A stretch of DNA of 32,386 bases. Source: Paracoccaceae bacterium. Lineage in GTDB: Bacteria; Pseudomonadota; Alphaproteobacteria; Rhodobacterales; Rhodobacteraceae. A program made the position numbers and the translations under genes. A model generated the notes under the pieces. It saw only the letters and a program-made list of their open reading frames with translations, was not told the origin of the DNA and ran no database searches. Below are positions 18,106-24,400 of the stretch, piece by piece. The DNA lies in contig JADLCV010000177.1 in assembly GCA_020846995.1 (NCBI GenBank), positions 1 through 32,386 of the forward strand. The letters are read 5' to 3'. Positions within the stretch are counted from its first letter, which is position 1. Every line of letters begins with the position of its first letter.

Positions 18106-19389
18106 TCAGCCGTTGTCGCGCAGGACCGTGCCGGCGAGGTAGAGCGAGCCGCAGATGACGATCCGCGCCCGCGGCTCGGCCGCCGCGATGGCGGCGACGG
18201 CGGCGGGGACATCCGCGGCCGCTTCGGCCGCGATCCCGGCCGCGGCCGCCGCCGCCGCCGTCGCCGCGGCAGCGAGCGTCGCCGGGGCATCGGGGATCGC
18301 GACCGCGTGAAGGCGGGCGACATGGGGGGCGAGCGGGCGCAGGAACCCGCCCACGTCCTTGGTCGCGAGCATCCCGCAGACGAGATGGGTGGGCCGCGCG
18401 GGCATCGCCTTCAGGGTCGCCGCCAGCGCCTCGCCGGCCGCCGGGTTGTGGCCCCCGTCGAGCCACAGCTCGGCCAGGGGGGCGGCCGCGGCGAGGGGGC
18501 CGCGGCCCAGCCGCTGCATCCGCGCCGGCCATTCCGCCCCGCTGACCCCTGCCGCCACCGCCCCCTCATCCGCCCCGAGCGCGCGAAGGGCGGCGACGGC
18601 GGCGCCGGCGTTGTCGATCTGGTGGGGGCCGGGAAGGTTCGGGCGCGGCAGGTCGAGGAGCCCGCGGCCGTCCTGGAAGACGAGCCGGCCGCGCTCCTCC
18701 CAGGCCAGCCAGTCGCGGCCGTGGGCGATGAGGGGGGCGCCGAGGAGGGCGGCGCGGGCCTCGATCACGGCCATCGCCGCGGGCGGCTGGGGGCCCGTGA
18801 CGCAGGGCACGCCGGGCTTGAGGATCCCCGCCTTCTCGCCGGCGATGAGCGCGAGGGTGGAGCCGAGATAGGCCTCGTGGTCGATCGAGACCGGGGTGAT
18901 GACGGTGAGCCGCGGCGCCGGCACGACGTTCGTGGCATCGAGGCGGCCGCCGAGCCCGACCTCGAGCAGCGTCCACTCGGCCGGGGTGCGGGCGAAGGCG
19001 AGGAAGGCGGCGGCGGTCGTGATCTCGAAGAAGGTGATCTCGCGGCCCTCGTTCGCGCGCTCGCACTCGTCGAGAAGGCGGGCCAGCGCCTCCTCGGCGA
19101 TCAGCGTCCCGGCGAGCCGGATGCGCTCGTGGAAGCGCACGAGATGGGGCGAGATGTAGGCGTGCACGCGCCCCCCCCGGGCCTCGAGCCCGGCGCGAAT
19201 CATTGCCTGGGTCGAGCCCTTGCCGTTCGTCCCGGCGACGTGGATCACCGCCGGCAGGGCCCGCTCGGGATGGCCGAGGGCGGCGCAGAGCCGTTCGATG
19301 CGGGCGAGCGAGAGGTCGATGACCTTGGGATGGAGGTGCGTCAGCCGCTCGAGGATGACGTCGCTGCCGGCGAGCGTCAGGATGCTCAC
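18106..19389 (-). CDS. folC: Folylpolyglutamate/dihydrofolate synthase
   Basis: A 427-residue Mur-ligase-family enzyme that joins glutamate to dihydropteroate and to folates in the cytosol. Motifs: the ATP loop [11 protein letters not shown] at residues 50-60, [70 protein letters not shown] (carbamylated-Lys region) and [15 protein letters not shown] in the C-terminal domain. The C-terminal 80 residues contain a long Ala run (around 380-410) atypical of the family but common in this genome. The start is a GTG at 19389 overlapping the accD stop as GTGA, giving accD-folC translational coupling. The frame stays open far upstream through accD and beyond; that extension is a shadow. Confidence 0.96.
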
Positions 19390-20327
19390 GCCTTGGCCTC
19401 GCCCTCGGCGGGGCCGGGGGCGGCCCCTTCGGCGGCCGGCACGGCGGCGGGCGCGGGGAGGTCGGCCGCCACCGCCGGCGGCAGGCCGAGAAGCAGGCGG
19501 ACGATCACGATCAGGTCCTCGCGCAGCTTGCGGCGGTGGGTGACGCGGTCGAGCATGCCGTGGTCGAGCAGGTATTCGGCCCGCTGGAAGCCGTCGGGCA
19601 GCTTCTCGCGGATCGTCTGCTCGATGACCCGCGGCCCGGCAAAGCAGATGAGCGCCCCCGGCTCGGCGATCTGGACGTCGCCTAGCATGGCGTAGGAGGC
19701 CGTGACGCCGCCGGTGGTGGGGTTGGTGAGGACGACGATGTAGGGCAGGCCGGCATCGCGCAGCATCTGCACGGCGACCGTCGTCCGCGGCATCTGCATG
19801 AGGCTGAGGATCCCCTCCTGCATCCGCGCCCCGCCGGCGGCGGCGAAGAGGATCAGGGGCTTGCGCCGCTCGACGGCGCGGGTCGCGGCGGCGATCACGG
19901 CGTTGCCGACGAGCATCCCCATCGAGCCGCCCATGAAGGCGAAGTCCTGGGCGGCGGCGACGACCGGGGTGCGGCCGATCTCGCCCTCGGCGACGAGCAT
20001 CGCCTCGCGCTCGCCGGTGGCCTTCTGGGCGGCCCGCATGCGGTCGGGGTATTTCTTCTGGTCGCGGAAGCCGAGCGGGTCGGCGACCGGCTCGGGCACC
20101 TTCACCTCGGTGAAGATGGCGCCGTCGAAGAGGCCGGCGAAGCGTGCCCGCGGGCTGATCGCCAGGTGGTGGTCGCAGGCGGTGCAGACGTTGAGGTTGG
20201 TGGCCAGCTCGCGGTGGAAGAGCATGGTGCCGCACTCGGGACATTTCGACCACAGGTTCTCGGGCATCTCGCGGCGCGAGAAGAGCGAGTTGATTGTCGG
20301 CCGGACGTAGTTGGTGATCCAGTTCAT
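19386..20327 (-). CDS. accD: Acetyl-CoA carboxylase carboxyltransferase beta subunit
   Basis: A 313-residue protein beginning [17 protein letters not shown] four-Cys zinc ribbon is at Cys29, Cys32, Cys48 and Cys51 (CPEC and CTAC). The crotonase-like core carries [55 protein letters not shown] and [20 protein letters not shown], all diagnostic for the beta carboxyltransferase. With AccA it transfers carboxyl from biotin to acetyl-CoA, the first step of fatty acid synthesis. The C-terminal 30 residues are an Ala/Pro/Glu-rich tail. The start at 20327 fits the family N-terminus and has AAGGGG just upstream. It is followed by folC with a 4-base overlap. Confidence 0.97.
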
Positions 20328-20360
20328 CGTCCCCTTGCCCCGCTGGCGGCGGACGGCGCC

Positions 20361-20389
20361 GAGATAAGGCCGCGCGCGCCGGAATGCAA
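20361..20389 (-). promoter_or_regulatory. Candidate accD-folC promoter
   Basis: On the minus strand TTGCAT (20384-20389) and TATCTC (20361-20366) are separated by 17 bases and would start transcription about 27 bases before the accD ATG. Confidence 0.5.
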
Positions 20390-20394
20390 ACCCG

Positions 20395-20410
20395 CCCGCG
20401 GCCCCGCGGG
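20395..20410 (-). terminator. Possible terminator after the glycosyltransferase gene
   Basis: CCCGCGG (20395-20401) pairs perfectly with CCGCGGG (20404-20410); the 2-base loop means the inner pairs must open. On the minus strand it is followed by CGGGTTTGC. It lies about 40 bases after the glycosyltransferase stop and before the accD promoter. Confidence 0.35.
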
Positions 20411-20447
20411 TGGCGCCCGGCACCGGCCCGCCGCCCGCGGCGCGGGG

Positions 20448-22493
20448 CTAGCCCGGGAGGGCGGCCCTCGGGGGCGGGACGCGGCCCACAAGGCCCGGCT
20501 CGACGGCGCCGCCGAAGCAGCCGTGCGTGGTCTTGTCCCAGTGGAAGGGGCGGAAGGCGAGGTCGCCCAGCGCCTTCCAGGCGGCGACCGAGCCGAGCGT
20601 GAAGTAGACCGGCAGGGTCGGGGCGAGGGGCGCGAGGCCGCGGTGCGCGGGCGGGAGTGCGGCCGCCACGACGGCGAGGTCGACGAGTCCGGCCGCCGCG
20701 AAGAGGCACCAGAGCGGACCGAGCGGCACCCCGGGCAGTGCCGCCGTCAGGGGATGGGGAAGGCCGAGAGCGAGAAGCCCCGTCGACCACAGGAGGGGCG
20801 CGAGCAGGAACTGCGACAGCGCGCCGAGGAACAGGACCTGGACGCCGAGGAAGGCGCGCGGCCCGAGCTCGCGCCAGAGCCGGCAGGGATCGCGCATGTG
20901 CACGGCCCAGGTCACGGCATGGCCCTTGATCCAGCGCGACCGCTGCCGGACCCAGGGCCAGGGGCGGCAGTTCGCCTCCTCCTCGGTCACGGTCGCCACG
21001 AGCTCGGTCCGCCAGCCGCGGCGGGCGAGCCGCAGCCCGAGGTCGGCGTCCTCGGTGACGTTGTGGGCGTCCCAGCCGCCGAGGGCCTCGAGCGCCGCGC
21101 GGCGGAAGAAGAGCGTCGTGCCGCCGAGCGGCACGGCCAGGCCGAGGCCCGCGATCCCCGGCAGGACGACCCTGAACCAGGACGCGTATTCGAGGGCGAA
21201 GCAGCGCGAGAGCCAGTTGACGCGGGGGTTGTAGAAGTCGAGCACGCCCTGGAGGCAGACGACCTCGGGGCCGCGTTCGTGAAAGCGGCGGACGATGGCG
21301 TGGATCTGGTCGGGGTCGGGCCGGTCCTCGGCATCGTAGACGCCGATGATCGCGCCGCGGGCCCGGTCGAGGGCGTAGTTGAGCGCCCGCGGCTTGGTCT
21401 GCACCTCGCCCGGCGGTACCGTGACGACGCGCATCCAGGCCGGCAGCGCCGTCGCCGCGAGCGCCCGGCGGGTGGTGCCGTCGCCGGCCTCGACCGCGAT
21501 CAGGACGTCGAGGAGTTCGCGCGGGTAGGAGAGGCGCCCGAGGCGGGCGACGAGCGCGGGGACGATCTCGGGCTCGCGGAAGAGGGGCACGATCAGCGAC
21601 ACGAGGGGCAGGCGCAGGGGCACCGGCGCGGCCCCGGCCGGCGCCGTCCGCGCCCGCCGGCGGGCCCGGAGGACGGTCGCCAGGGCCGCGAGCTTCACCG
21701 CCGCCGCGGCGAGAAGGGTGAGGAGGGCCCAGCCATAGGCGGCGGCGACCAGCGCCCCCGGCGCGAGCAGCGCCGCGAGCGCGAGCGGCAGGCCGAGACC
21801 GAGGCCGAGGAGGCGGCGGCGGGCGGCGGCGGGCCGGCGGCCGCGGCAGCTCAGGGGGGCCTCGACCCGCGCCTCGGCCGCCGCGGCGAGGGCACCGCCC
21901 CGCGCCGCCTCGACGGCGGCGGCGATCGCCCGCGCCGGCGCCACCGCGATCCGCACCGGGCCGAGCGCGGCCTCGAGCTCGCGCCGCCGGCCGAGCGCCT
22001 CGCCCGGCCGCGCGGCAAGGACGACGGCGACCCCGCCCCGCCGCCGCCACGGCAGGACCCCGAGCCGCAGGCATTGGCCCGCGCCGAGGCGGTCGATGAG
22101 GGCGGGGTCGGCCGGCCGGGCGAGGGGATCGACGACCTCGCTGCCCCATTCGGCCGCGAGCCCGCGGGCGAGCGTCGCCTCGCTGACCATGCCGTGGGCG
22201 AGGAGGATGTCGGCGAGGCTCGCATCCTCGCGGGCCCGAAGGGCGAGGGCCCGGACGAGGTCGCCCGGGGCGAGGGCGCCGTCCTCGAGGAGGATGCGCC
22301 CGAGCGCCCCCGCGCGCGGCCACGGCGCGAGCCGCGGGGCGGGGGGCGCGAGCGCCCGCGGCGGCGGCGCTGGCCGGGAGGCGGGGGCGGGGCCGGGCCG
22401 CGGCCATCCCCGGGGCCCGGCCGCCGGCGCGGCCGGCAGCGGCGAGGGCAGGGCGCCGGGCGCCGCCGCTTGGCTGGTCGGGGGGGGCGGCAT
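20448..22493 (-). CDS. Membrane glycosyltransferase 2 with N-terminal MshEN-like domain
   Basis: A 681-residue fusion. Residues 1-58 are a Pro/Ala-rich leader. Residues 60-195 resemble the GspE N-terminal (MshEN) domain in two half-repeats: LGRILLEDGALAPGDLVRAL and SLADILLAHGMVSEATLARG, then a VVDP and GVLPWRRRGG section. Two membrane helices (about 227-275) precede a processive-type GT2 domain: LVSLIVPLFREPEIV, the DxD-like YDAED (Asp387-Asp390), TED at 480-482 and QRSRW at 517-521. More helices follow. It probably polymerises or transfers sugar at the inner membrane. MshEN domains can bind cyclic di-GMP, but the first half-repeat here lacks the usual leading Arg and closing Gln, so binding is uncertain. 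Relatives such as E. coli NfrB carry the two domains in the opposite order. A CtrA-type site lies upstream. Confidence 0.88.
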   Translation of the reverse strand: MPPPPTSQAAAPGALPSPLPAAPAAGPRGWPRPGPAPASRPAPPPRALAPPAPRLAPWPRAGALGRILLEDGALAPGDLVRALALRAREDASLADILLAHGMVSEATLARGLAAEWGSEVVDPLARPADPALIDRLGAGQCLRLGVLPWRRRGGVAVVLAARPGEALGRRRELEAALGPVRIAVAPARAIAAAVEAARGGALAAAAEARVEAPLSCRGRRPAAARRRLLGLGLGLPLALAALLAPGALVAAAYGWALLTLLAAAAVKLAALATVLRARRRARTAPAGAAPVPLRLPLVSLIVPLFREPEIVPALVARLGRLSYPRELLDVLIAVEAGDGTTRRALAATALPAWMRVVTVPPGEVQTKPRALNYALDRARGAIIGVYDAEDRPDPDQIHAIVRRFHERGPEVVCLQGVLDFYNPRVNWLSRCFALEYASWFRVVLPGIAGLGLAVPLGGTTLFFRRAALEALGGWDAHNVTEDADLGLRLARRGWRTELVATVTEEEANCRPWPWVRQRSRWIKGHAVTWAVHMRDPCRLWRELGPRAFLGVQVLFLGALSQFLLAPLLWSTGLLALGLPHPLTAALPGVPLGPLWCLFAAAGLVDLAVVAAALPPAHRGLAPLAPTLPVYFTLGSVAAWKALGDLAFRPFHWDKTTHGCFGGAVEPGLVGRVPPPRAALPG

Positions 22494-22550
22494 CGGCCGG
22501 CAGGCTCCGTCACGGGCGTTGATGGCCCGGCAACCCTGCCTTCAGCGAGG

Positions 22551-22565
22551 TTAACGGCGGGTTAA
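22551..22565 (-). promoter_or_regulatory. CtrA-type binding site (TTAA-N7-TTAA)
   Basis: TTAA at 22551-22554 and TTAA at 22562-22565 are exactly 7 bases apart; on either strand the next base is C, giving the full TTAA-N7-TTAAC consensus of the cell-cycle regulator CtrA. The right half sits in a perfect 10-bp palindrome, GGGTTAACCC (22559-22568). TTAA is very rare in this GC-rich DNA. The site is 57 bases upstream of the glycosyltransferase ATG and 15 bases past the carA stop, a normal place for an activating or repressing site on the glycosyltransferase promoter. Confidence 0.65.
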
Positions 22566-22580
22566 CCCATCCGGCCCGGC

Positions 22581-23735
22581 TCAGGCCGCCCGGCGGGTGC
22601 GCATGGCACGGGCGAAGCGGTCGAAAAGGTCGGCGCTGTCCTGCGGCCCGGGGCTCGCCTCGGGGTGATACTGGACCGAGAAGACCGGCGCATCGGCAAG
22701 GCGCAGGCCGCAGTTCGAGCCGTCGAAGAGGCTGACGTGGGTCTCGATCACGCCCGCGGGCAGGGTCCCGGCATCGACGGTGAAGCCGTGGTTCATGCTG
22801 GTGATGGCGACGCGGCCGGACTCGAGATCCTTGACGGGATGGTTGGCGCCATGGTGGCCGTGGTTCATCTTTACCGTCCGCGCCCCGAGCGCGAGCGCGA
22901 GCATCTGGTGGCCGAGGCAGATGCCGAAGACGGGCAGGCGGGCGGCGAGGATGGCGCGGATCATCGGCACGGCATAGACGCCCGTCGCCGCCGGATCCCC
23001 GGGCCCGTTGGAGAGGAACACCCCCTCGGGGTCATGGGCAAGGACCTCGGCCGCCGTCGCCGTGGCCGGCAGGACCGTCACCTCGCAGCCCGCCTGGGCG
23101 AGCGCGCGCAGGATGTTGCGCTTGGCGCCGTAGTCGAGGGCCACGACCCTGAGCCCCGGCCCCTCGCGCCGGCCGTGGCCGCGGGGCCAGACCCAGGGCG
23201 TCTCGTCCCAGCGGTAGGACTGGGTGCAGCTGACCTCGCGGGCAAGGTCGAGGCCGACGATGCCCCGCCAGCCGCGCGCCCGGGCGACGAGGGCCGCGAC
23301 ATCGAAGCGGCCGGCGGGATCGTGGACGAGGGCGACCTGGGGGGCGCCCTGGTGGCGGATCGCCCGCGTCAGCCGGCGCGTGTCGAGCCCGCCGATGCCG
23401 ATCCGTCCGTGGCGCTCGAGCCAGCCCGCAAGCGGGCCCGCCGCCCGCCAGTTCGAGGGCGCGGTCGGATCCCAGCGCACGGCCATGCCGGCGGCGAAGG
23501 GGTGGGCGGATTCGTCGTCCTCGGGGTTAACGCCGACGATGCCGACATGGGGGAACGTGAAGGTCACGACCTGCCCGGCATAGGAGGGATCGGTCATGAT
23601 CTCCTGATAGCCGGTCATGGCGGTGTTGAAGACGAGTTCGGCCACGCACTCGCCGGTTGCCCCGAAACCCCGCCCGTAGAAGTGCGTGCCGTCGGCAAGC
23701 GCAAGGCAGGCCGTGGGGCGGGAGGGGGCGGGCAT
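22581..23735 (-). CDS. carA: Carbamoyl-phosphate synthase small subunit
   Basis: A 384-residue glutamine amidotransferase subunit. The N-terminal CPSase domain shows LADGTHFYGRGFGA, VFNTAMTGYQEIMTDPSYAGQ (given in family-typical order) and GGLDTRRLTRAIR. The class I glutaminase domain has VVALDYGAKRNILRAL, FLSNGPGDP, the nucleophile Cys in FGICLGHQMLALALGA, MNHGHHGANHPVKDL and the catalytic His-Pro-Glu in VQYHPEASPGPQD. It releases ammonia from glutamine for the large subunit CarB, feeding arginine and pyrimidine synthesis; carB is not in the window. It is divergent from the GatB/YqeY gene, a common alphaproteobacterial arrangement, and has a good promoter 37-65 bases before its ATG. Confidence 0.97.
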   Translation of the reverse strand: MPAPSRPTACLALADGTHFYGRGFGATGECVAELVFNTAMTGYQEIMTDPSYAGQVVTFTFPHVGIVGVNPEDDESAHPFAAGMAVRWDPTAPSNWRAAGPLAGWLERHGRIGIGGLDTRRLTRAIRHQGAPQVALVHDPAGRFDVAALVARARGWRGIVGLDLAREVSCTQSYRWDETPWVWPRGHGRREGPGLRVVALDYGAKRNILRALAQAGCEVTVLPATATAAEVLAHDPEGVFLSNGPGDPAATGVYAVPMIRAILAARLPVFGICLGHQMLALALGARTVKMNHGHHGANHPVKDLESGRVAITSMNHGFTVDAGTLPAGVIETHVSLFDGSNCGLRLADAPVFSVQYHPEASPGPQDSADLFDRFARAMRTRRAA

Positions 23736-23929: not shown

Positions 23930-24400
23930 ATGAGCCTGCGCGACCGCATCGCCGCCGCCCTCAAGGCCGCGACCAAGGCCCGGGATGCGCCCCGGCTCTC
24001 GACCCTGCGGCTGATCCACGCCGCGATCAAGGACCGCGACATCGCCGCCCGCGGCGAGGGCGGCGGGGGCGAGGACGCCCTCGTCGGCGAGGCCGAGATC
24101 CTCGTCATCCTCGGCCGCATGGTCCGCCAGCGCCACGAGAGCGCGCGGGCCTACGAGGAGGGCGGCCGGCTCGACCTTGCCGAGGGCGAGCGGGCCGAGA
24201 TCCTCGTCATCGAGGAGTTCCTGCCGCGGCCGCTCGGCGAGGCCGAGGTCGCGGCCGCGATCGCCGCCGCCATCGCCGAGACCGGGGCCGCCACCATCCG
24301 CGACATGGGGCGCGTCATGGCCTGGCTGAAGGCGCGCCACCCCGGGCAGATGGATTTCGCCGCCGCCGGGGCCGAGGTCAGGGCCCGGCTCGGCGGCTGA
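23930..24400 (+). CDS. GatB/YqeY domain protein
   Basis: A 156-residue all-helical protein of the YqeY family, similar to the tail domain of the GatB amidotransferase subunit. It begins MSLRDRIAAALKAATKARD and contains STLRLIHAAIKDRDIAARG, VILGRMVRQRHESARAYEEGGR, the EILVIEEFLPRPLGEAEV block and the closing MGRVMAWLKARHPGQMDFAAAG. Family members are thought to bind tRNA or assist amidation, but the role of the free-standing protein is not firmly known. A TTG-start -35 (TTGTGC, 23865-23870) and TAAGCT (23888-23893) with 17-base spacing is a weak candidate promoter. It is divergent from carA; dnaG, which often follows this gene in alphaproteobacteria, is not here, and the next gene converges on it. 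Confidence 0.93.
   Translation: MSLRDRIAAALKAATKARDAPRLSTLRLIHAAIKDRDIAARGEGGGGEDALVGEAEILVILGRMVRQRHESARAYEEGGRLDLAEGERAEILVIEEFLPRPLGEAEVAAAIAAAIAETGAATIRDMGRVMAWLKARHPGQMDFAAAGAEVRARLGG

Follow-up and report, generated by a model that had tools for sequence, protein, structure and literature searches.

A CtrA-type site conserved in Rhodobacteraceae in front of a gene for an MshEN-domain glycosyltransferase

The locus and the question it raises

Does a perfect CtrA-type site in front of a glycosyltransferase (GT) gene place a surface polymer under the control of CtrA? A first-pass annotation of the window (the whole stretch of DNA analysed, 32,386 nucleotides) had read this locus as a 'surface polysaccharide switch under CtrA'. 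That proposal stands in part: conservation, promoter geometry and co-loss speak for CtrA control, and a polysaccharide product is plausible from fold and motifs, but the c-di-GMP side of the switch comes out weak. The features concerned are as follows.

22551..22565, minus strand: candidate CtrA full site TTAA-N7-TTAA, exact match; reading on the gene strand, TTAACCCGCCGTTAACC
20448..22493, minus strand: MshEN-GT2 membrane glycosyltransferase gene, by its Pfam matches (681 amino acids, protein P0001)
22581..23735, minus strand: carA, carbamoyl-phosphate synthase small subunit, upstream of the GT gene on the same strand
23930..24400, plus strand: yqeY, divergent from carA
19386..20423, minus strand: accD-like ORF directly 3' of the GT gene, named by resemblance of its translation alone

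Read directly, the forward-strand letters at 22551-22565 are TTAACGGCGGGTTAA, an exact instance of the perfect CtrA-type TTAA-N7-TTAA(C) that had been claimed, and the 57 bases from there to the ATG at 22493 agree with the distance first given. No other exact TTAA-N7-TTAA lies in the window, and 100 dinucleotide shuffles of it yielded not a single one. TTAA had been called extremely rare in this DNA. It is indeed rare in the window, but it is not specially avoided, since its four copies match the 3.4 expected from composition (74% G+C). No Rfam family was found in the window at gathering score.

Exact sites in the genome and the CtrA circuit

The genome-wide motif scan that the first-pass annotation had suggested returned four exact sites and none for the reversed control pattern (3,592,940 bases in 281 contigs, 97.9% complete). 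With up to one mismatch allowed, the scan gave 22 sites and the reversed control also 22, so that we give no weight to inexact sites here. We dropped this second list as a description of the regulon, though it includes the promoter of ctrA itself, which is preceded by a one-mismatch site.

Which genes lie behind the other three exact sites? One site precedes the gene of a hybrid kinase whose best NCBIfam models are two CckA models, with scores of 519 and 414 bits, under the whole-protein cut-off of 1000. Another precedes a PAS-domain gene with no NCBIfam match at 1e-20, a putative divL by resemblance, which adjoins a kinase resembling RegB. The last (L004:1501-1515) ends 20 bases ahead of an ORF of about 71 codons, itself followed by an autoinducer-binding luxR-type gene, and a quorum-sensing link is possible. 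Both cckA and divL have been reported as CtrA-site genes in Rhodobacterales (PMC2877005, PMC4046655), and CtrA sites have been reported for luxR2 of D. shibae (PMC4046655). The genome encodes CtrA (NF045991, 427.4 bits for a cut-off of 350) and, beside ctrA, SciP (NF051866, 120.8 bits for a cut-off of 100). Given these two regulators, and cckA-like, divL-like and luxR-linked genes behind the other exact sites, the MshEN-glycosyltransferase gene shares its exact-site set with the core of the CtrA circuit. GcrA (PF07750), considered as a co-regulator, had no match in this 97.9% complete genome.

Conservation of the site across relatives

Conservation of the site upstream of orthologues had been named as a check on the CtrA reading, and the site is strongly conserved. 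We used the GT protein as query and took the best 80 loci, mostly labelled Rhodobacteraceae, Rhodobacterales or genera thereof. An exact site lies within a 450-base stretch around the start of the GT match in 74 of these 80 loci, and the remaining six (L041, L048, L052, L054, L087 and L089) show a site with one mismatch within those 450 bases, against an expectation of at most 0.04. Over the 879,311 bases of the best 80 loci, 76 exact sites fall near the GT start and two elsewhere; the reversed control gives one near and three elsewhere.

A second set, made of family genomes, overlaps the first (L146, L148 and L108 duplicate L041, L023 and L032, respectively). Among the 51 GT genes of CtrA-positive genomes in this set, 47 have an exact site, three a one-mismatch site and one none. 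The 47 include G011 and G017, where the GT gene is split into two pieces and the accepted site precedes the better-scoring one by 812-1050 bases. L118, with its upstream sequence missing, was excluded from the counts and replaced by L209 from the same genome.

Some relatives carry arrays in front of the GT gene, with at least three TTAA at 11-base steps (L022:4806-4831, and also L113, L114, L151, L152 and L168), an arrangement on which several CtrA molecules might be able to assemble side by side.

Co-loss of the glycosyltransferase gene with CtrA

Does the GT gene follow CtrA across the family? We scored as CtrA-negative the genomes without a match at E 1e-60, which leaves eight of 120 family genomes (G010, G016, G047, G051, G076, G107, G119 and G126), several of them not small. 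A looser CtrA search in G010 and G016 recovered only regulators of up to 37% identity. In the 61 distinct family genomes scored for both genes, the GT gene is present in 51 of 53 CtrA-positive genomes versus one of eight CtrA-negative ones (Fisher p 6.4e-7, uncorrected for kinship). This co-loss makes the link between CtrA and the GT gene hard to dismiss.

The individual cases deserve attention. CtrA-negative G010 keeps the GT gene beside carA, without the site (two mismatches at best) and without the first MshEN part. CtrA is present in G003 and G019, which have no GT orthologue, and in G071, which has a diverged GT without MshEN and without the site; in scoring orthologues, we left out the weak match in G019 (E 7e-8, 28% identity) and counted the diverged GT of G071 (39%). 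Completeness is 74% for CtrA-negative G051 and 82% for G010. The CtrA-negative genomes include fast-evolving small ones, and the co-loss may therefore be due in part to general reduction. A carA tree of 27 rows, seven of them CtrA-negative, needs three label changes, with the starred branches forcing at least two; some CtrA-negative rows are long branches, which leaves the number of changes unsure, and G119, with no carA match, is absent from the tree.

G010 and G071, represented by L123 and L208, are two relatives from one carA subclade. In each of them the GT is without its N-terminal MshEN part and the gene without a CtrA site, and both features may have been lost together.

Promoter geometry

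If CtrA acts at this site, where would transcription start? We aligned 75 sequences on the site (74 relatives and the window). They share TTAACN6TTAACC, followed by weak signal up to index 28 (the first T being 0), where A is found in 67% of the sequences, with T at index 32 in 65%. The A-N3-T pair at 28/32 occurs in 43 of the 74 relatives; at other offsets the mean is 2.7 and the maximum seven. In the window, this gives the following elements.

22533..22538, minus strand: -10-like hexamer CAGGGT, with A at position 2 and T at position 6
22526, minus strand: predicted transcription start (G), 24 bases past the site with a 33-base leader, placed from the -10 and the fla2 geometry
22505..22508, minus strand: possible Shine-Dalgarno GGAG, a direct reading of the sequence

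The conserved A and T suggest a -10 element that would put the 5' base of the site at -39: with the A taken as -11, the start would fall at index 39 and 24 bases beyond the site. This predicted geometry resembles that of known CtrA promoters. In R. sphaeroides, the CtrA promoters that have been mapped are reported to start transcription 23-24 bases beyond the site, to have A without exception at -11 and to leave 12-33 bases ahead of the start codon (PMC6180460). In Caulobacter, full sites are reported as commonest at the -35 region, and podJ P2 has its full site at -39, read as activating (PMC4287350). The putative GT promoter has in common with podJ P2 and the R. sphaeroides fla2 promoters the TTAA-N7-TTAA and, by the predicted start, the 5' end at -39, about 24 bases from site to start and the A at -11. 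It differs from them in its target, a GT2 polysaccharide synthase, and in that the start here is inferred. No sigma-70 consensus promoter was found, nor any in shuffles, which makes this search uninformative.

Strong support for CtrA control comes from the conservation of the site, its promoter geometry, the occurrence of CtrA and SciP in the genome and the co-loss with CtrA, and we regard it as very likely that CtrA binds here and activates the GT promoter. Phosphorylated CtrA would bind both TTAA half-sites, in place of a -35 element, and bring RNA polymerase to a -10 box, CANNNT, 12 bases downstream, with a start near 22526. Translation of the transcript would yield a GT2 synthase embedded in the membrane and bearing MshEN at its N-terminus; this synthase would assemble a sugar polymer and export it, for secretion or for the cell surface. 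A further gate on the enzyme, by c-di-GMP via MshEN, could operate in many Rhodobacteraceae. In this genus, the promoter may also extend to the accD-like gene that follows the GT gene.

Alternative readings of the site

Among the alternatives, an improbable one keeps CtrA at the site but has it repress the GT gene, or act with another regulator to a net effect other than simple activation. SciP, encoded next to ctrA here, represses CtrA-activated genes in Caulobacter, where a single site can have opposite effects on two starts, activating the one and repressing the other (PMC4287350). However, Caulobacter repressor half-sites are described over the -10 (PMC4287350), and the conserved -10-like element would put our site over the -35 region, the activating position. 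Could the site instead serve a neighbour, carA or the downstream accD, with the GT gene incidental? The accD-like gene is directly 3' of the GT gene here and in same-genus G001 (L210), and a CtrA transcript could reach it. This reading is nevertheless highly improbable: the site sits between carA and the GT gene in the common order yqeY-carA-GT (71 of the 80 best loci), it also precedes the GT gene at loci with no carA found in the vicinity (L067, L075 and L086), and the accD query matched at none of the 80 best loci (flanks of up to 5 kb, less at contig ends).

The repeat could also be a carA terminator or RNA hairpin, in which GGTTAAC folds back on GTTAACC across GGCGG. The window sequence allows a stem of eight pairs directly past the carA stop codon, and the flanking pair -1/15 could form in 46 of 74 relatives. 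Other positions pair unevenly in these 74 (5/9 in 24, 4/10 in 39, -2/16 in 32), and identity as a direct repeat is found there in 55 (4/15) and 40 (5/16). No terminator-like site was found, against 0.2 in shuffles, the fold energy is no better than that of shuffles (z -0.12), and the element holds a constant distance to the conserved -10-like box. We rejected the hairpin on its ordinary fold energy, its uneven pairing and the lack of a terminator-like site, and give it as little credit as the neighbour reading. Least credible of all is that the match arose by chance in A+T-poor DNA. When one mismatch is tolerated, sites do occur at control frequency in this genome; however, the exact site is absent from all 100 shuffles, the genome-wide control is empty and 74 of the 80 best loci have the site exact, so that conservation across the family refutes this reading.

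The glycosyltransferase

What would a CtrA-activated promoter drive here? The first-pass annotation had called the downstream gene an MshEN-glycosyltransferase, and both domains are matched in Pfam: MshEN (PF05157) at residues 116-202, with GT2 matches at 298-587. In alignment A1, composed of the window protein and of 42 relatives out of 74 complete ones, D338, D387, D390, TED at 480-482 and QRSRW at 517-521 (Q517, R520-W521) are invariant in 43 of 43. The structure model (mean pLDDT 86.9) matches PcManGT with Z 28.8 over 332 residues at rmsd 3.7 and BcsA 4p00 with Z 23.6 over 390 residues at rmsd 3.4; hyaluronan synthases are matched too. As judged from its sequence and modelled fold, the protein is a membrane GT2 synthase, and the fold and motifs make a polysaccharide its likely product.

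The protein shares the GT2 membrane-synthase fold with BcsA and PgaC-type synthases but differs from them in sequence, with 16-21% identity to the BcsA chains listed, equivalog scores far under cut-off and no PilZ among its Pfam matches. Among the NCBIfam models listed for it, no full-length equivalog cut-off was reached. Fusions of MshEN to glycosyltransferases are already known (PMC5013675, PMC8669469). One of them, the c-di-GMP-controlled glycosyltransferase NfrB of E. coli, likewise combines a GT2 bearing DxD, TED and QxxRW with MshEN (PMC8669469); however, MshEN is N-terminal in our protein, and the NfrB MshEN construct covers residues 414-745, after the GT (PMC8669469). The NfrB equivalog score is 34.6 bits, far from the cut-off of 1170. 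NfrB is absent among the 50 fold matches shown, which is uninformative about the fold.

The MshEN domain and c-di-GMP

Is the enzyme also gated by c-di-GMP? The first-pass annotation had noted that its domain type can bind this messenger. This may hold for many relatives, which keep motif II, but is doubtful for the window protein. The region concerned is the following.

22149..22304, minus strand: MshEN tandem-motif region with eroded c-di-GMP motif, residues 64-115

The c-di-GMP motif is described as RLGxx(LVI)(LVI)xxG(LVI)(LVI)xxxxLxxxLxxQ, present twice (PMC5013675). The NCBIfam motif region falls at residues 64-113 of the window protein, and its score, 32.7 bits with NF053729, stays under the cut-off of 38. 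Motif II has S92, A94 and E115 in place of R, G and Q, residues that are kept in 63, 61 and 62, respectively, of the 80 rows of a family alignment (one of 81 GT proteins, shorter than 450 amino acids, was dropped from this alignment). In motif I, the A1 consensus reads R-x-P-L-G, with the Arg shifted. At E 1.2e-9, the estimated equivalent of the cut-off, the c-di-GMP motif was found in 30 of 42 sampled relatives and not in the window protein.

The domain is MshEN by sequence, as is that of the VcMshE-type receptors (Pfam match; PilF 6f8l, E 7.5e-14). However, the window protein lacks key residues of the tandem motif as described for these receptors (PMC5013675), and on its sequence it falls outside the two-motif definition of an MshEN c-di-GMP receptor. 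Xanthomonas GspE is reported as an MshEN protein in which c-di-GMP binding was lost through changes of key residues (PMC5013675). Because 30 relatives reach about the cut-off, and the window protein is under it in a genus where key residues are missing, c-di-GMP gating appears plausible for the family and doubtful for the window protein, whose own control by c-di-GMP we consider unlikely. As the c-di-GMP gate looks eroded in this genus, control there is probably mostly transcriptional.

The three genomes of the genus that were examined all show an eroded motif: our own, G001, where motif II is without R, G and Q, and G002, where it is without R and G and keeps Q.

A family-wide target of CtrA?

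How far can this locus be generalised? We see about an even chance that the MshEN glycosyltransferase belongs to the core targets of CtrA throughout Rhodobacteraceae and persists for as long as CtrA does. The CtrA programme (motility, quorum sensing and gene transfer agents) would then be coupled to one surface polymer hitherto undescribed, and many species would have c-di-GMP as a second gate, one that this genus has lost. If this is true, many Rhodobacteraceae offer a ready test of a CtrA link from differentiation to the cell surface, consisting of one gene, one promoter and one enzyme. The polymer could bear on attachment, capsule, or the reception of phages or gene transfer agents; in R. 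capsulatus, gene transfer agent adsorption is reported to require both extracellular polysaccharide and capsule (PMC9552610).

In the literature searched we found no CtrA-regulated MshEN glycosyltransferase, and the main texts searched for it contain no word beginning with 'glycosyl'. This search covered main texts as distinct from the regulon gene tables in supplements, such as the D. shibae list of 101 promoters (PMC4046655), and we claim no priority: the GT gene may be listed without comment in the tables of R. sphaeroides, R. capsulatus or D. shibae.

Further observations on the neighbourhood

Two minor observations concern FolC-like and carA-like sequences. In the window, the accD-like ORF is followed by a FolC-like sequence with Mur ligase domains. 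Same-genus G001 carries, at locus L204 (G001:C19), another carA-like stretch, which has 63% identity to the carA of the window.
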